Shown here in pieces: positions 1 through 32,174 of a DNA stretch of 32,174 nucleotides (position 1 is its first letter; each line of letters starts with the position of its first letter). The position numbers were made by a program, and so were the translations under genes. The notes beneath the pieces are model-generated. The model saw nothing but the letters and a program-made list of their open reading frames with translations, was not told the DNA's origin and ran no database searches. The stretch is from Natrinema thermotolerans DSM 11552 (GTDB taxonomy: Archaea > Halobacteriota > Halobacteria > Halobacteriales > Natrialbaceae). The DNA lies in NCBI GenBank assembly GCA_000337115.1, contig AOIR01000040.1, positions 1 to 32,174 on the forward strand, in the 5' to 3' direction.

Positions 1-19
1 AGATGTGTATAAGAGACAG
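1..19 (+). other. Tn5/Nextera mosaic-end adapter (library artefact)
   Basis: The first 19 bases, AGATGTGTATAAGAGACAG, are identical to the 19-bp transposase mosaic end used in tagmentation libraries. This is not genomic sequence. It keeps the following reading frame open by chance and adds five false residues to it, so the genome begins at base 20. It marks this as the raw end of an assembled contig. Confidence 0.95.
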
Positions 20-1153
20 GCGGACGGCGCGTACCGCGGCGTCGCCGGCGTCGTCCGCGATATCACCGCCCGCACCGAGCGCAAACGCGAACTCGAGGAG
101 TACGAGACGATCCTCGAGACGATCCCGGACGAGGCCTATCAACTCGACGCCGAGGGCTACATCACGAAGGTCGTCCCGCCGAGCAACGCCGAGGTGGCGA
201 TGACCGGCCACGCCCCCGCGGAGCTGGTCGGCGAACACGTCTCGCTGATCATGGACGAGGACGACATCGCCACCGCCGAACGCGAGATCGAGTCGCTACT
301 GGACGACTCGGACCGCGACCACGCCTCCTTTGAGATGGAGACGATCACGATCGACGGCGGCCGGGTCCCCCACGAAAACCACATTGCGGTCCTGCCGCGC
401 GACGAAGACGGCCGCTTTCAGGGGACCGTCGGCGTCCTGCGGGACATCACGGACCGCAAGGAACGCGAGCGCGAGCTGAAAGCCCAGAACGAGCGCCTCG
501 AGCGCTTTGCCAGTATCGTGTCCCACGACCTCCGGAACCCCCTAAACGTCGCACAGGGCCGCCTCGAGCAGGCCCGCCGGACCTGCGACTGTGACGAGAC
601 CCACCTCGAGGAGGTCGCGTGGGCCCACGACCGGATGGGCGTGTTGATCGAGAACATCCTGACGATCGCGCGCGATCGGGATCCACAGCCCGACCCGGAG
701 CCGATCGATCTCGCGGCGATCGTCGACGACTGCTGGGATCACGTCGACACCGGGACGGCCGCGTTGCGGGTCGACACCGACGCCGTCGTTCGGGCCGATC
801 GGGCGCGGCTCAAGCAGTTGCTCGAGAACCTGCTTCGCAACGCCGTGGATCACAGCGACGTCGGCCCCGCGGGCCCCGACGGCGATGGGGACCGCTCCGG
901 CGTCACGATCACGGTCGGCGACCTCGCGGACGGGGACGGCTTCTACGTCGCGGACGACGGCCCGGGGATCCCGCCCGACGAACGCGAGCGGGTCTTCGAG
1001 AGCGGCTACTCGAGCGACGGGGACGGGACCGGCCTCGGGCTCGCGATCGTCGAGCGGATCGCGGCGGCCCACGGCTGGACGGCGACGGCGACCGAGAGCG
1101 TGGCCGGCGGCGCACGGTTCGAGCTGGCCGATGTCGACTCGGTCGGCCGGTGA
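20..1153 (+). CDS. PAS-domain sensor histidine kinase, 5' truncated
   Basis: This is the C-terminal part of a cytosolic sensor kinase that autophosphorylates on histidine and passes the phosphate to a response regulator. The visible part starts with the end of one PAS domain (a VVRDITARTERKREL linker), followed by a complete PAS domain of about 110 residues ending in another GVLRDITDRKERE linker. Next come the HisKA helix with the H-box SHDLRNPLNV, and a HATPase domain with N-box LLENLLRNAVDHS, G1-box DDGPGIPPDE and G2-box GTGLGLAIV. All catalytic boxes are intact. The N-terminus is missing because the contig begins here; the apparent GTG at base 5 lies in adapter. No membrane segment is seen in the remaining part. 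No cognate response regulator is adjacent. Confidence 0.93.
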   Translation, partial: ADGAYRGVAGVVRDITARTERKRELEEYETILETIPDEAYQLDAEGYITKVVPPSNAEVAMTGHAPAELVGEHVSLIMDEDDIATAEREIESLLDDSDRDHASFEMETITIDGGRVPHENHIAVLPRDEDGRFQGTVGVLRDITDRKERERELKAQNERLERFASIVSHDLRNPLNVAQGRLEQARRTCDCDETHLEEVAWAHDRMGVLIENILTIARDRDPQPDPEPIDLAAIVDDCWDHVDTGTAALRVDTDAVVRADRARLKQLLENLLRNAVDHSDVGPAGPDGDGDRSGVTITVGDLADGDGFYVADDGPGIPPDERERVFESGYSSDGDGTGLGLAIVERIAAAHGWTATATESVAGGARFELADVDSVGR

Positions 1154-1600: not shown

Positions 1601-2371
1601 GTGACTAACACGCAGGTAACGCTCGTTCAGATCGACAACTACGGCCCCTGGACCGTGACCCCGGAGCCCCGCCGGGAAGCGGACCTCCAGACCATGCAAT
1701 CCCGACTGTACGCCGACATCTCCCAGTTCGTCGGCAACCGCGACGGCTACACCTTCTTCACCCGGTTCGACAACATCATCGCCGTCACGAACGGCTGCTC
1801 GATGGAGGACCACGCGCTCCTCCAGGAGTCGGTCGGCAACCGATACCCCGTGACGCTCAGTCTCGGCGTCGCGACCGGTCGCAGTCCCGTCCAGGCGCTG
1901 TCGGACGCGACCGAACGCCTGCAAGACGCCGGCAGCGCACAGGACGAGGACCGCCGGGAGTGTCTCGAGGGTCGGGCCATCGACGAGGAGTTCCGGGCCG
2001 ACGAGGACGTCCAGATCGCCCACTTCGACGTGATCAACGCGACCGGCAACTACACGGACGAACTCAACGCCTTCGACACCTTCATCGAGATCGAGCAGGG
2101 CTATGCGGAACTCATGCGCCACATGCGCCACGCCCACGACAGCCTCTCCTTCTTCGTCGGCGGCGACAACGTCATCGTCGTCTGCCCCGATCTCGGGACC
2201 GCCGACTACGAGGAGGCGGTCACACACGTCGCGGACGCCGTCGGCGTCGAGATGCAGGTCGGCGTCGGTCGCGGGAAGAGCGCCCACGAGGCCGGCTACG
2301 ACGCCAAACACGCCCTCGAGACCTGTCGGGCCGACGGGACGCGGGTCGAACTCGAGTGGGAGAACGCCTGA
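1601..2371 (+). CDS. arfA: GTP cyclohydrolase III (GTP cyclohydrolase IIa)
   Basis: The 256-residue protein starts with GTG and matches archaeal GTP cyclohydrolase III (MJ0145 family). This enzyme opens GTP to 2-amino-5-formylamino-6-ribosylaminopyrimidinone 5'-phosphate, the first step toward riboflavin and the F420 chromophore in archaea. The sequence shows the family's two ferredoxin-like, cyclase-related halves. The N-terminal half has VTLVQIDNYGPWT, FTRFDNIIAVTNG and TLSLGVATGRSP. The C-terminal half has IAHFDVINATGNYTD, FFVGGDNVIVVCP and MQVGVGRGKSAHEAGYDAKHALE. The paired FDN and GGDN segments are the metal/GTP-binding turns. It is a single gene with its own TATA box. A creatininase-family gene at 22084, possibly encoding the next enzyme (ArfB), lies 20 kb away. 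Confidence 0.93.
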   Translation: MTNTQVTLVQIDNYGPWTVTPEPRREADLQTMQSRLYADISQFVGNRDGYTFFTRFDNIIAVTNGCSMEDHALLQESVGNRYPVTLSLGVATGRSPVQALSDATERLQDAGSAQDEDRRECLEGRAIDEEFRADEDVQIAHFDVINATGNYTDELNAFDTFIEIEQGYAELMRHMRHAHDSLSFFVGGDNVIVVCPDLGTADYEEAVTHVADAVGVEMQVGVGRGKSAHEAGYDAKHALETCRADGTRVELEWENA

Positions 2372-2455
2372 GTTCGGGAGTTAGAGAACTTCGCTCCCGA
2401 TTTTCTTAAGTGTGGTGGAGGTAGCTTTTAGCCCGTCCGTGTGATCCGTACACGT

Positions 2456-3064
2456 ATGGAATCGGAACTGTCCGTCAGGGACGTGCTGACGAGCGAGTAC
2501 GTCGGCGTCAGCGAATCGGATACCGTGCTCGACGTGGTGCGGCTCATGCGTGAGGAACGGACCAGCTGTGCGCTGGTCGTCCGGGGCTCCGAGCCCGTCG
2601 GCATCGTGACCGAGTGGGACGTCCTGGAACTGATCGCCGGGGAAGGCGAACCGTCCGCGACGACCGTCGACGAGGTGATGACGACGCCGGTCATTACGGT
2701 CGACCCCGCCCGATCGCTGACCGACGTCGCCACCACGATGGCCCGCCAGAACATCCGTAACGTCGTCGTCGACGGCCCGGACGGGATCGTCGGGCTCGTC
2801 ACCCAGCGAGACGTCATCGCGGCCGCCAGTTCCTTCCAGGCGACGATGACTCCCGCCCGCTCGAGCGAGCCGCCGATCGATCGCGACCGCGGCATCGCCG
2901 AGCCCGCGACCGCGCCCCCCGCCGGGGAGGGCGAGGCTGCCGTCCTCCCCAACGGCGGCGACGAGTACACCACCCAGGGCGTCTGCGAGGCCTGTGGCTC
3001 GCTCGCTGACGCGCTGTGGGACGCCAACGGCCAGCTGGTCTGTTCGGACTGTCGGACAGTGTAG
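2456..3064 (+). CDS. CBS-pair protein with C-terminal zinc ribbon
   Basis: The 202-residue cytosolic protein has two tandem CBS motifs: about residues 5-60 (VRDVLTSEYVGVSESDTVLDVVRLM to GIVTEWDVLELI) and about 68-125 (VDEVMTTPVITVDPARSLTDVATTM to GLVTQRDVIAAA). Such a pair normally forms a Bateman module that binds adenine nucleotides and senses energy or ionic state. A low-complexity linker of about 50 residues follows, then a C-terminal CEAC-x15-CSDC, a likely structural zinc ribbon. ATG 2456 is preferred over the GTG at 2441 because a TATA-like CTTTTAG at 2425-2431 sits at the right distance. The ligand and partner are unknown. It lies alone between arfA and pgk. Confidence 0.88.
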   Translation: MESELSVRDVLTSEYVGVSESDTVLDVVRLMREERTSCALVVRGSEPVGIVTEWDVLELIAGEGEPSATTVDEVMTTPVITVDPARSLTDVATTMARQNIRNVVVDGPDGIVGLVTQRDVIAAASSFQATMTPARSSEPPIDRDRGIAEPATAPPAGEGEAAVLPNGGDEYTTQGVCEACGSLADALWDANGQLVCSDCRTV

Positions 3065-3166
3065 GCCGCTCTCGGAATTCACAACTGCGTGTGGTGTGTC
3101 ATCAGTCAACGCAGACTATCTCTCCGATAGAAAGACCTTTCGGGTGCCGCAGTGGACTGACCGGTA

Positions 3167-4390
3167 ATGATCGCGACCCTCGACGACCTGGACGTCGAAG
3201 GGACTACCGTCGGTGTTCGCGTCGACGTCAATAGTCCGATCGACGACGATGACACGCTCGCGGACGACGCCCGCCTGCGCGCCCACGTCGATACCCTCGC
3301 GGAACTGCTCGAGCGGGACGGTCGGGTCGCCGTCCTCGCCCATCAGGGCCGACCCGGCGGCGACGAGTTCGTCTCCCTCGAGTCCCACGCCGAACGGCTC
3401 TCGGAACTGCTCGGGCAGCCGGTCGACTACGTGGACGCCACCTTCACCGACGCCGCCCGCGAGGCCGTCAGGGACCTCGAGGACGGCGACTGCGTCGTCC
3501 TCGAGAACACCCGCTTCTACAGCGAGGAGTACATGGAGTTCGAGCCGAAGCGGGCCGCCCGGACCCATCTGGTCGAGGGCCTCGAGCCGGTCCTGGACGC
3601 CTACGTCAACGACGCCTTCGCGGCGGCACATCGCTCCCAGCCCTCGCTGGTCGGGCTCCCGACGGTCCTGCCGAGCTACGCCGGCCGGGTCATGGAGTCC
3701 GAACTCGACGTACTGGGCTCGATCGAGGAGACCGCCGACCCCCGCGTCTACGTCCTCGGCGGGGCGAAAGTCTCCGACTCCATCGACGTCGCCTGGTCGG
3801 TCCTCGAGAAGGGACTGGCCGATCACGTCCTCACGGCCGGCGTCGTCGGCAACGTCTTTCTCATCGCCGACGGCGTCGACCTGGGCGACGCCAGCTCCGA
3901 TTTCATCTACGATCAGGGCTACTGGGACGAGATCGACCGCGCCGCGGACCTGCTCGACGCCCACGGCGACCGAATCGCGCTGCCCCGCGACGTCGCCGTC
4001 GACCGGGACGGCGGCCGCCACGAACTCGGCGTCAACGCCCTTCCGCCGGGCGACGGCGAATCCGCCATGGACATCGGCGGGTCGACCCTGGAGTACTACC
4101 GGCGCGTCCTCGAGGACGCCGAAACCGTCATCCTCAACGGCCCCGCCGGCGTCTTCGAGGACGACCGCTTCGAGACCGGGACACGACAGCTCTACGACGC
4201 CGCGACCGACATTCCCACGAGTATCGTCGGCGGCGGCGACACCGCCTCGGCGCTTCGCCAACTCGGCGTCGAGGGCTTTTCACACGTCAGCACCGGCGGC
4301 GGCGCGGCCCTCCGGATGCTCACCGCCGAATCCCTGCCCGCCGTGACCGCACTCGAGAATGCCCCCGAGCAACCAGCGGCCGACGATTGA
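3167..4390 (+). CDS. pgk: Phosphoglycerate kinase
   Basis: This 407-residue protein is full length for archaeal PGK, which interconverts 1,3-bisphosphoglycerate + ADP and 3-phosphoglycerate + ATP in glycolysis/gluconeogenesis. The N-terminal domain has the 3-PG site RVDVNSPID, the HQGRPG loop, ENTRFYSEE and YVNDAFAAAHRS. The C-terminal nucleotide domain has VLGGAKVSDS, ILNGPAGVFE and VGGGDTASAL, followed by STGGGA near the end. All the family's core motifs are present. A TATA-like AAAGACCTTT (3131-3140) precedes ATG 3167 by about 30 bases. The GNAT gene starts inside its last 32 bases, so the two are likely co-transcribed. Confidence 0.97.
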   Translation: MIATLDDLDVEGTTVGVRVDVNSPIDDDDTLADDARLRAHVDTLAELLERDGRVAVLAHQGRPGGDEFVSLESHAERLSELLGQPVDYVDATFTDAAREAVRDLEDGDCVVLENTRFYSEEYMEFEPKRAARTHLVEGLEPVLDAYVNDAFAAAHRSQPSLVGLPTVLPSYAGRVMESELDVLGSIEETADPRVYVLGGAKVSDSIDVAWSVLEKGLADHVLTAGVVGNVFLIADGVDLGDASSDFIYDQGYWDEIDRAADLLDAHGDRIALPRDVAVDRDGGRHELGVNALPPGDGESAMDIGGSTLEYYRRVLEDAETVILNGPAGVFEDDRFETGTRQLYDAATDIPTSIVGGGDTASALRQLGVEGFSHVSTGGGAALRMLTAESLPAVTALENAPEQPAADD

Positions 4391-15967: not shown

Positions 15968-18900
15968 TCACTCGGCCGAGCCGTCGGCGGCCGGCAGGGT
16001 GACGGTAAAGGTTGCGCCCTCGCCCGGCTCGGAGTCGACGGTGATCTGGCCGCCGTGGCGCTCGATGATCCGGTGACAGAGTGCGAGCCCGATCCCCGTC
16101 CCGGGGTGGTCCTCGTGGCTGTGGAGCCGCTGGAACACCCGGAAGATCCGGTCTTGATGCTCGGGATCGATCCCGATCCCCTCGTCGCGGACCGAGATCG
16201 CCCACCGGTCGCCGGTTCGTTCGGCGCTGACGTGAATTTCCGGTGGCTCGTCGCCGCTGTACTCGAGGGCGTTCGTGAGGAGGTTCTGGAACACCTGTCG
16301 GAGCTGACCGGCGTCGCCCCGGACCACGGGCAGGGACTCGACCGTGACCGTGGCGTCTTCCTCCTCGATCCTGAACTGGAGGTCCTCGCGGACGTCTGCG
16401 ACGACGTCCGCGAGGGAAAGCGGCTCGAGGGGGTCCCCGCGGGTCTCGATGCGGGAGTACTCGAGCAGGCCGTTGATCATCTCCGAGAGCCGCTCGGCCC
16501 CGTCGACGGCGTAGTCGATGAACTCCTGGCCGTCCGCATCGAGGTCGTCGGCGTAGCGGCCCTCGAGCAAGCGGAGGTAGCTCGAGATCATCCGCAGGGG
16601 TTCTTGCAGGTCGTGGGAGGCGGCGTAGGCGAACTGCTCGAGGCGTTCGTTCGACTCCTCGAGTTTGCGCTGGTACTCCGTGCGTTCGGTGACGTCCTGA
16701 ATGACGAGCATCCCCGAGGTGACCGCCCCACCGGTCCGGACGGGAAGGGTAGTTGCGCGGAGTTCCCGGCCGCGGTAGCCGATTTCGAAGGACCGCTGCT
16801 CGCCCTCGAGCGCGGCGCGGAAGTGGGGTTCGATCTCCGCGAGTAGGTCGTCGGGGTATCGCTCGTGGATCGTCTGGCCGATCGTGGCCTCCCGATCGAT
16901 GCCGATCTCGCCGAGGAGACCACCGCCCGCGGCCGTATACCGCAGTTCCTCGTCGAACAGCGCGACGACGCCGTTCGGGAAGTTCTCGGCCAGCGTCCGG
17001 TAGCGCTGTTCGCTCTCCTCGAGTCGGCGCTGTCGCGCCTTCCGTTCGGTGACGTCCCTGACGACGCCGATCCGCTCGCGCCCGCGGTCGGCCGACGTGA
17101 CCGACGTGACCGCCGCCTCTATCGAACGTCGCTCGCCGGCTTTCGTCCGAAGATCCGCTTCGACGGTCGGCTCGCCGCACTCGTCGGCGGCGATCTCCCG
17201 TGCGAGGGCCATCACGTGTTCGTCGACGACCATCGAGGCGTGGCTCCCGAGCAGTTCCTCGCGGTCGTAGCCCGTCAACTCGACGTACGCGTCGTTGACC
17301 ATCGTGAACCGGCCCTCGGCGTCGAGGACGTAGATCCCGTCCTCGACCGTCTCGATGATCCGTTCGTACTGCTCGAGCTGTCGTTCCCGTCGCTTTCGCT
17401 CCGAAACGTCCCTGAAGTACACCGACAATCCGGTCTCGGAGGGGTAGGCCTGAATCTCCATCCAGACGTCGAGCGACTCGGAGTAGCGCTCCCACGAGAC
17501 CGGCTCCTGAGTCGCCATCGCCTCCCGGTAGCGGTCGGCGAGATCCGAGCGCGTCCCGCTGGGGAACACCTCCCAGATGTTCCGTCCGAGCAGTTCGTCC
17601 CGTGAACGGCCCAGTAGCTCCGCAGCGCGGTCGTTGACGTGAGTGAAACACCACTCGTCGTCGAGCGCGTAGAAGGCATCCGAGACGCGCCCGAGGATCT
17701 CGCTCAGTTCGGACTCGAGTTCGTGTTTGCGACGTTGGAGACGGCGTTCCTGTTCTTTCAGCGCCGTGATGTCCTCGCCGACGGAGACAACCCGTTCGAC
17801 GTCGCCATCGGGGCCGAACACGGGGACGGCAGTGATGGAAAACCACGTCCGCTCGCCCGAGTCCGCCCCGATCGACAACTCCACATCGCGGACCGGCTCG
17901 CCGGTGTCCCTGACGCGTGCCGACGGGCCGTGATCGGGGCCGATCGGCTCGCCATCGGCGTCGACGACGGTCCGTTCGGCGAGCAGTTCGGTCTCGCCGA
18001 GCGGCTCGCGATCCGCGAGTCCGAGCGCCGTCTGTGCGTGTCGGTTCGCCAGCACCGTCTCTCCCTCGGCGTCCTCGACCGAGACCGCCACCGGCATCGT
18101 CCGGAGCAGTGTCTCGGTCTGGACCCGTTCGCGCTCGAGGTGCTGTTCGTGGCTGATCCGGTCGAACGTCGCCTCCAGACTCGAGGCGACGATCTTCGCC
18201 AGTGAGAGATCGGCCGCGTCGAAGGCCGCTTGCTCCTCGGCACCGATGATGACGATCCCGTGGTCGCCGATCGGGAGACAGATCTCGCTGTGGATCGGCG
18301 TCTCGGGGTTGTAGACGGCCTCGTCGGCAGTGACGTCGTCGTAGATCAGCGGCTCGCCGGTCTCGAAGACCTGCCAGGCGATCCCCTCACCCGCCTCGAA
18401 CGTCGGCGGCTCGCCGAAGAGGGATTCGGCCGCGTCGGTCCAGGCGACCGGCTCGAGCGTCTCGTCGGCCGGCTCGTGGAGGAAGACGCCGTTGACCTCG
18501 AGCGCGAGGATGTCGGCGAGATGGCGACACGCCTGCTCGGCGACCGCCCGCCGCGTGCCGGTGGCGAGCCACTCGCGAACGGCCTCGTTGAGCCGCCGCA
18601 GCTGATAGGCCCGACGGTGTCGGTCGGTCACGTCGTAGTAGAGTTCGAGCCGGCCGCCGGCGTACGGCCCCGACCGGATGGGCTTGCTCCGGTGTTCGAG
18701 CCAGCGTTCCTCGCGGCCCTCGTCCGACGTGACGCGACACTCGAACCGTTCGGCGTCGCTGTTGTCGTCGTAGGTCGCGCCGACGATGTCGGCGAACCCG
18801 GCCGGTTCGGCGATCCGGTCGCTGATCACGTCGTCGACCACCGTCATCTTGTCCCGGCCGACGACGGTCGCCGCGTCGAGCCCGAAGTACCGCTCCGTCG

Positions 18901-19402
18901 CGTCGTTGATCCAGACGATATCGAACTCGTCATCGAGGACGAAGACGCCGACATCGGCCTCCTCGAGGACGGCCGTAATCGGTTCGAACGTCGAGGGCGG
19001 TCCCGCGGTGGCCGACGTCGCTTCGGACGCGGTGTCGAGTTCACGGACGAGCGCGATCGATCCCCGACTGCCATCGGCGGCCGGAACCGTCCCGAGGCGA
19101 ACCGAACAGGCCACAGTGGTCCCGTCTGCCGTCCGAACGGGGAACTCGAACGGGGCATCGTCGGCCGCGAGCGCGTCGGCACCCTCGAGCAGCCACGAGA
19201 CGTGTTCGCCCCGGAGCGCCTCGTGCGTGTACCCGGTCAGCTCGAGCAGGTCGTCGTCGACGGCGACGATCCGGTCGTCGGCGTCCAGTTGGATCACGCC
19301 GTCGTCGACCGTCTCGACGAGCGTTCGGTACCACTGGCGGGCCGCCCGGCCGTCGCCCTCGTCCCACGGTGGCGAGCCCGCTGGTTCCACCCGTTCAGTC
19401 AT
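15968..19402 (-). CDS. Multi-PAS/GAF sensor histidine kinase (1144 aa)
   Basis: This large cytosolic sensor kinase has no membrane helix. Rough domain order: PAS1 25-125, PAS2 140-265, GAF 275-420 (REWLATGTRRAVAEQACRHLADIL onward), PAS3 430-550, PAS4 565-680, PAS5 690-800, PAS6 805-920, HisKA about 930-990 with H-box SHDLQEPLRMI, HATPase about 1030-1140 with N-box NLLTNALEYSG, G1 DEGIGIDPEH, F-box IFRVFQRLHS and G2 GTGIGLAL. All kinase boxes are intact. No Cys/His pattern shows which PAS binds a cofactor; redox, light or ligand sensing are all possible. ATG 19402 is supported by a TATA-like CTTAT at 19428-19432; the in-frame extension upstream is not. It sits between two paralogous four-helix membrane genes in the same orientation. 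Confidence 0.95.
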   Translation of the reverse strand: MTERVEPAGSPPWDEGDGRAARQWYRTLVETVDDGVIQLDADDRIVAVDDDLLELTGYTHEALRGEHVSWLLEGADALAADDAPFEFPVRTADGTTVACSVRLGTVPAADGSRGSIALVRELDTASEATSATAGPPSTFEPITAVLEEADVGVFVLDDEFDIVWINDATERYFGLDAATVVGRDKMTVVDDVISDRIAEPAGFADIVGATYDDNSDAERFECRVTSDEGREERWLEHRSKPIRSGPYAGGRLELYYDVTDRHRRAYQLRRLNEAVREWLATGTRRAVAEQACRHLADILALEVNGVFLHEPADETLEPVAWTDAAESLFGEPPTFEAGEGIAWQVFETGEPLIYDDVTADEAVYNPETPIHSEICLPIGDHGIVIIGAEEQAAFDAADLSLAKIVASSLEATFDRISHEQHLERERVQTETLLRTMPVAVSVEDAEGETVLANRHAQTALGLADREPLGETELLAERTVVDADGEPIGPDHGPSARVRDTGEPVRDVELSIGADSGERTWFSITAVPVFGPDGDVERVVSVGEDITALKEQERRLQRRKHELESELSEILGRVSDAFYALDDEWCFTHVNDRAAELLGRSRDELLGRNIWEVFPSGTRSDLADRYREAMATQEPVSWERYSESLDVWMEIQAYPSETGLSVYFRDVSERKRRERQLEQYERIIETVEDGIYVLDAEGRFTMVNDAYVELTGYDREELLGSHASMVVDEHVMALAREIAADECGEPTVEADLRTKAGERRSIEAAVTSVTSADRGRERIGVVRDVTERKARQRRLEESEQRYRTLAENFPNGVVALFDEELRYTAAGGGLLGEIGIDREATIGQTIHERYPDDLLAEIEPHFRAALEGEQRSFEIGYRGRELRATTLPVRTGGAVTSGMLVIQDVTERTEYQRKLEESNERLEQFAYAASHDLQEPLRMISSYLRLLEGRYADDLDADGQEFIDYAVDGAERLSEMINGLLEYSRIETRGDPLEPLSLADVVADVREDLQFRIEEEDATVTVESLPVVRGDAGQLRQVFQNLLTNALEYSGDEPPEIHVSAERTGDRWAISVRDEGIGIDPEHQDRIFRVFQRLHSHEDHPGTGIGLALCHRIIERHGGQITVDSEPGEGATFTVTLPAADGSAE

Positions 19403-19460
19403 TGAGAGAGCAACGCCACTCCGACGGATAAGTGCAGCGCCGATGGCTATCACGGCGGGG

Positions 19461-31022: not shown

Positions 31023-32174
31023 ATGACTGACGACGCGGACGCGACGAGAGGAGTCGAGGGGGGCGGTCGGCGACGGGAACTGACCGCTCGACTCGCCGTC
31101 CCCGAGATGGACTGTCCGTCCTGTGCGGGGAAGGTCGACAAGAGTCTGGGGCGGGTCGACGGGGTCGTCGACGCCGACCTCAATCCGACGACCGGGACGG
31201 CCACGGTCACGTACGACCGCGATCGAACCAGCGAGGCCGACGTGGCCGCGGCGATCGAAGGCGCCGGCTACGAGGTCACCGGAGGAACGGCCGACGACGG
31301 GGCGACGGAATCGGACTCGAGCGGCGACGGCGTCGACGTCGCACCGCCCTCGGAGGTCTGGACGAGTCCGCGCGCGAAGAAGACGTGGCTCGGTGCGGTG
31401 TTCGTCACGCTCGGACTGGGCTTCGAGTTCCTCCTGACGGGCGGCAACGTCGCGGTGGCGAGCGTCCTCGAGTATCCCCTCCACGTCTCGGATCTGCTCT
31501 TTCTCGGGGCGGTCGCGGTCAGCGGCGTCCCCGTCGTCCGCAGCGGCTACTACTCCGCGAAGAACCGGAGCCTCGACATCGACCTCCTGATGGGGACGGC
31601 GATCATCGCCGCGACCGGGATCGGCTACTTCGTCGAAGCCGCGACGCTGGCCGTCCTCTTTAGCATCGCCGAACTGCTCGAGGACTACGCGATGGACCGG
31701 GCGCGGGACTCCCTGCGAGAACTGATGGAGCTGTCGCCGGACGAGGCCACAGTCATGCGCGACGGCGAGGAGGTGACCGTCGACGCGGACGACGTGGCGG
31801 TCGGCGAGACCGTCGTCGTCCGGCCCGGGGACAAGATCCCGCTCGACGGGACGGTCCGTGAGGGCGAGAGCGCGGTCGACGAGTCGCCGATCACCGGCGA
31901 GAGCGTCCCCGTGGACAAATCGACCGGCGACGAGGTGTACGCCGGAACCATCACCGAGGACGGCTACCTCGAGGTCGAGGTCACTTCGACGGCGGGCGAT
32001 TCGACGCTCTCACGGATCATCGAGATGGTCCAGGGGGCACAGGCCGACAAGACGGAAACCGAGCAGTTCGTCGACCGATTCGCGGGCTACTATACGCCCG
32101 TCGTGGTCGTCCTGGCGATCCTGACCGCCGCCGTGCCGCCGCTTCTCATCGGCGACACCGTCACCGCGGGGGTC
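31023..32174 (+). CDS. Heavy-metal P-type ATPase (Zn/Cd type), 3' truncated by the window
   Basis: The 384 visible residues are the N-terminal half of a P1B-type ATPase that pumps heavy-metal ions out of the cell. A metal-binding HMA domain carries MDCPSC (Cys31, Cys34). The first membrane helices follow (WLGAVFVTLGLGFEFLL onward), then SLDIDLLMGTAIIAATGIGYFVEAATLAVLFSIAELLEDYAMDRARDSLRELM, typical of ZntA/CadA-like enzymes, and the actuator loop with TGES (291-294). The ion-selecting CPx helix and the phosphorylated DKTGT lie beyond the window edge, so Zn/Cd versus Cu cannot be confirmed. ATG 31023 follows TATA GCTTATCG (30991-30998). It is likely regulated by the preceding HTH-10 protein. 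Confidence 0.94.
   Translation, partial: MTDDADATRGVEGGGRRRELTARLAVPEMDCPSCAGKVDKSLGRVDGVVDADLNPTTGTATVTYDRDRTSEADVAAAIEGAGYEVTGGTADDGATESDSSGDGVDVAPPSEVWTSPRAKKTWLGAVFVTLGLGFEFLLTGGNVAVASVLEYPLHVSDLLFLGAVAVSGVPVVRSGYYSAKNRSLDIDLLMGTAIIAATGIGYFVEAATLAVLFSIAELLEDYAMDRARDSLRELMELSPDEATVMRDGEEVTVDADDVAVGETVVVRPGDKIPLDGTVREGESAVDESPITGESVPVDKSTGDEVYAGTITEDGYLEVEVTSTAGDSTLSRIIEMVQGAQADKTETEQFVDRFAGYYTPVVVVLAILTAAVPPLLIGDTVTAGV

Follow-up and report, generated by a model that had tools for sequence, protein, structure and literature searches.

A residual Tn5 mosaic end opens a Natrinema thermotolerans contig inside a truncated sensor kinase gene

The first 19 bases of the DNA analysed here are almost certainly the synthetic mosaic end (ME) of Tn5, left behind as residual adaptor from an early (Epicentre-type) Nextera library. 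The window – the whole stretch of 32,174 nucleotides from N. thermotolerans DSM 11552 – comprises bases 1-32174 of contig C40 (39,570 bases) of a draft genome (G000) of 3,895,275 bases in 68 contigs. That the opening 19 bases stem from library adaptor is concluded from three bodies of evidence: the location of all 39 ME copies found in this genome at assembly breaks, the old type of the tails that lie outside them, and seven joints at which the same DNA is present free of the ME. The 19 bases are without biological function; they are an ordinary artefact and not a real genomic feature, and their significance is one of data quality and the cleaning of records only. The features concerned are collected in Table 1.

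Table 1. Features at the start of the window
Feature	Position	Strand	Basis
Mosaic end of Tn5 (ME), adaptor left over from the library, non-genomic	1..19	+	exact match, absent in shuffles
GTG within the ME, possible mock start of the kinase frame	5..7	+	ORF 5..1153; first in-frame start codon
First nine genomic bases, GCGGACGGC	20..28	+	G at 1 and C at 9, in line with Tn5 target preference; weak by itself
3' part of a PAS sensor histidine kinase, 377 aa, N-terminus missing	20..1153	+	Pfam (PAS, HisKA, HATPase_c); relatives

An earlier reading, made from the sequence only, had claimed that the window opens with an exact tagmentation mosaic end, and this is borne out: the bases AGATGTGTATAAGAGACAG differ from the Tn5 ME at no position, and the ME was matched in none of 100 dinucleotide-shuffled versions of the window. 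Even when as many as three mismatches are allowed, this remains the sole match on either strand, and the shuffles still give none. GC content is 37% in the 19 bases versus 66% window-wide, and the sequence is the same 19 bp that is printed as the ME in the text of PMC3046479. Original Nextera adaptors carry a tail on the outer side of the ME, whereas at the window's own contig end none is left.

The attribution to tagmentation finds its backing elsewhere in the same genome – in 38 other full or truncated copies, in adaptor tails and in seven joints with uninterrupted native DNA. The genome holds 30 exact copies, while the reversed ME, used as a control, gave none; a search with a 13-base ME core, covering remnants of 13 bases or more, adds nine truncated copies. 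Every copy found lies at an assembly break (21 at contig ends, 18 at joints marked by N). Eighteen of the 30 exact copies are at contig ends, with 0-19 bases outside them, and the other 12 are internal, N following on the outer side no more than 18 bases beyond the ME; of the nine truncated copies, all interrupted by the contig edge or by the N, three are at contig ends and the other six beside N. Wherever a full copy stands at a contig end (18 of 18), its 3' end faces inward, toward the insert: the copies lie on the plus strand at contig starts and on the minus strand at contig ends. At the 18 N joints (for example L013, L018, L023 and L027) adaptor is present inside scaffolds.

Flanks are duplicated at seven of the 18 joints, where the contig on the far side ends with the DNA that starts directly after the ME. 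Six of these overlaps are exact (30, 44, 58, 61, 82 and 83 bases) and the seventh spans 158 bases with one mismatch. Each of the seven loci holds one ME core and no second copy; the far contig therefore covers the same genomic position without the ME. At the remaining 11 joints no overlap was found within the limits tried: for full copies the overlap could reach 299 bases and contain no more than two mismatches, and for truncated copies it had to be exact and could reach about 200 bases. The unmerged flanks of 30-158 bp at the seven joints may leave genes interrupted or partly duplicated, and in drafts of this kind surveys of gene presence and absence could go wrong at ME joints.

The DNA on the outer side of the copies identifies the kind of library. 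At least one outer base is visible at 26 of the 30 full copies, and in 25 of these 26 the tail matches one of two old adaptor tails over its whole visible length, seven of the 25 showing just 1-4 bases; the tail at L001 leaves tail B after 11 of 17 bases. Ten full copies were assigned to tail A (GCCTCCCTCGCGCCATCAG) and nine to tail B (GCCTTGCCAGCCCGCTCAG), so that all 19 assignable copies are of the old types, while 11 tails are too short (0-4 bases) for assignment. The later Illumina tails gave no match exceeding one base at any of the 30 full copies. Both old tail sequences are found together in 232 papers, many of them, among the titles listed, on pyrosequencing or deep sequencing, and they therefore count as Nextera solely together with the ME. 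In this combination the 19-bp ME and the two outer tails of this assembly match the Nextera adaptors in their original form from the Epicentre era (Adey et al. 2010, PMC3046479), a text in which both tails, joined to the ME in PCR-free primers, are printed as original Nextera adaptor sequences.

A rival reading is that the strain truly bears a Tn5/ME element – a natural IS50, or the mark of a laboratory Tn5 mutant – at which the contig was broken. The exactness of the 19 bases and the many copies in one genome are as such an element would have them, but we consider this reading very improbable. A search for the Tn5-type domain Tnp_DNA_bind (PF14706) gave no match in the genome, with the E. coli positive control matched (14 control genomes); the outer sides of the copies are sequencing adaptor tails and no transposon body; native sequence runs uninterrupted by the ME at the seven joints described; and the copies found are confined to contig ends or N joints. 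PMC3046479 characterises the ME as derived from the ends of Tn5, hyperactive and 19 bp in length. On the missing PF14706 match, the ME-free joints and the adaptor tails taken together, we reject a natural Tn5 insertion.

If the 19 bases are library adaptor, then their arrival at the start of a contig can be pictured as follows. Hyperactive Tn5 transposase would have cut immediately before base 20, the ME being joined there. Reads from short inserts would then have run past the insert into the adaptor; adaptor screening would have failed to catch such reads; and the assembler would have prolonged the contig at its outer end with the ME and, elsewhere, with the tails behind it. C40 therefore starts inside the histidine kinase gene.

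The consequences for that gene are plain from its reading frame. In frame 2 the open stretch covers bases 2-1153, and its translation opens with DVYKRQ before passing into the kinase; the ME contributes the D (bases 2-4) and five codons, V-Y-K-R-Q, that begin with the GTG at base 5. The assertion that the ME holds the kinase frame open and adds five residues was accordingly correct. The next in-frame start codons are GTG at 194 and ATG at 200, and the ME also gives frame 3 an ATG (M-C-I-R-D-R), this frame closing after 66 codons. Automatic annotation may call a false start here, as had been predicted, the GTG at base 5 being the candidate codon; if a gene caller accepts open ends, its output would probably be a 5'-partial gene carrying a spurious DVYKRQ instead of a false start.

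How much of the kinase is missing was established through relatives. A search of 40 other genomes, 24 from the same genus, found several in which most of the gene's length is matched, with DNA identities of 74-90% and the best match in G004; other genomes of the genus gave weak matches only, which are probably paralogues. In all nine relatives fetched, the frame extends upstream across the junction, the sequence there being conserved (VSLLPL/ADGRYRG, the slash marking the junction, or a close variant), and the ME is absent from the approximately 4.1 kb covered. G004 offers two candidate ATG starts, at 363 and at 350 codons ahead of the junction. The comparison with full-length homologues that the sequence-only reading had proposed thus puts the loss at about 350-363 N-terminal codons. 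That the 19 bases are genomic by chance is the least credible reading of all: the frame is indeed open throughout them, but about 3e-6 exact copies are expected (3.9 Mb genome, both strands, assumed 64% GC) versus the 30 present, and the nine relatives have a different, conserved sequence at the site.

The missing upstream DNA is in part present on another contig. A search of the genome with bases 20-260 returned the window itself and weaker matches only (67-88% identity over 33-184 bases), and the DNA was located via G004 instead: in that relative, the DNA upstream of the junction aligns at 89% with the terminal part of contig C39 in the window's genome. The last base of C39, 101,091, lies in frame, 253-266 codons into the kinase, and neither the ME nor its core was found in this contig. 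By the coordinates of G004 the gap between C39 and C40 amounts to 97 unassembled codons (291 bp); the absence of an overlap at the window's own end is explained by this neighbouring contig stopping short. The ME here both puts the false residues on the truncated kinase frame and flags a gene that is split between C39 and C40. A further contig, C34, begins with sequence (bases 1-1156) in which similarity to the kinase's PAS portion recurs several times, with no ME found there; PAS-like arrays of this kind may be weak points of assembly.

Tn5 prefers targets with G at position 1 and C at position 9. At the 30 sites of the window's own genome G stands at position 1 in 16 (p=0.016) and C at position 9 in 15 (p=0.045; both one-sided and uncorrected), which is suggestive of a weak target bias. 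The bias is clearer at 130 sites from other genomes (p about 2e-4 each; three of 133 copies were dropped as duplicates or for short flanks or N), sites that are not independent given that many copies come from few projects. The window's own copy is single-sided, with a flank on one side only for a comparison of the 9-bp target duplication. Eight joints at which two copies stand back to back were available in four other genomes of the family (G066, G082, G083 and G084). None of the eight pairs has a common 9-bp end, and thus no joint was traced to one transposition event, as expected if the two contig ends arise in different events. A tail is visible at 13 of the 16 copies in these pairs, and in every case it agrees with old tail A or B as far as it can be seen; within the family, tails were read in these four genomes and the window's own, of 17 that bear the ME.

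The ME is not peculiar to this draft. Within the family it occurs in 17 of the 125 genomes examined, spread over eight of 29 genera with 10-51 copies each, and 108 have none. The 16 besides the window's own are G001, G013, G016, G066, G069, G082-G085, G088, G094, G098, G102, G103, G113 and G122; G001 and G013, of the same genus, hold 34 and 50 copies, none of them at the kinase. This all-or-none spread fits a common laboratory method and not descent. A haloarchaeal sequencing project described in PMC4230888 had PCR-free Epicentre Nextera among its libraries, assembled with A5 to a median of 66 contigs, and describes a post-assembly removal of E. coli BL21 and plasmid sequences; its main text does not contain the word 'adapter' in that spelling. 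The present genome is likely part of that project. According to the text of the A5 paper (PMC3441570), Nextera adaptors are screened by Tagdust by default, and leftovers therefore mean that the screen was incomplete or unused here. We think it probable that one sequencing effort with original Nextera adaptors left the ME in this batch of haloarchaeal drafts, and that the consequent losses and breaks of genes and spurious short duplications at these joints are systematic in public records and could be listed and cleaned automatically. Among the papers listed in a search of the literature on the ME in deposited assemblies, none concerned the present haloarchaeal batch, which is not proof of absence.

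At least 133 ME copies were found in at least 119 stretches of other public genomes. Among the matches listed, 121 of 133 have 100 or fewer outer bases in the stretch retrieved, and so lie near an edge as in the present case. The tails differ: among these same matches, 100 of 133 carry later Illumina tails (59 and 41 of the two kinds), unlike the old A and B here, the old B tail occurs once, in Natronococcus amylolyticus (L068), and 32 are unassignable. A related case comes from the SKESA paper (PMC6172800), in whose text the same 19-mer is the commonest suspect k-mer in 199 of the 219 sets that were trimmed, out of 5000 read sets taken at random; that case concerns reads, whereas the present one concerns assembled contigs. 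In Streptomyces and Actinoplanes NRRL scaffolds (Doro1 assemblies; L040, L072, L093, L109, L125 and L149) the ME lies more than 1 kb inside, possibly at the same kind of joint. In a contig of Achromobacter sp. ASV32 (L070; 6822 bases) it lies 150 and 171 bases from the ends, deeper than a tail alone would explain.

The remainder of the window and genome offers several further observations. Downstream of the kinase, bases 1601-4390 hold consecutive genes for GTP cyclohydrolase III, a CBS-domain protein with DUF7573 and phosphoglycerate kinase, the last with best plasmid matches that are haloarchaeal at 40-43% identity. A second sensor kinase, of 1161 aa with GAF, several PAS, HisKA and HATPase_c domains, is encoded on the minus strand at 15968-19453. 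Archaeal RNase P RNA was detected in the genome at 116.7 bits versus a cut-off of 84, a cut-off that bacterial controls also exceeded (four of 14 genomes); taken with the plasmid matches of the window's proteins, this makes a haloarchaeal source likely. The start of a gene for a heavy-metal P-type ATPase occupies bases 31023-32174 and runs off the window; its eight best plasmid matches are haloarchaeal, from several genera, at about 84% identity over 93% of the part searched, a similarity that hints at recent transfer.
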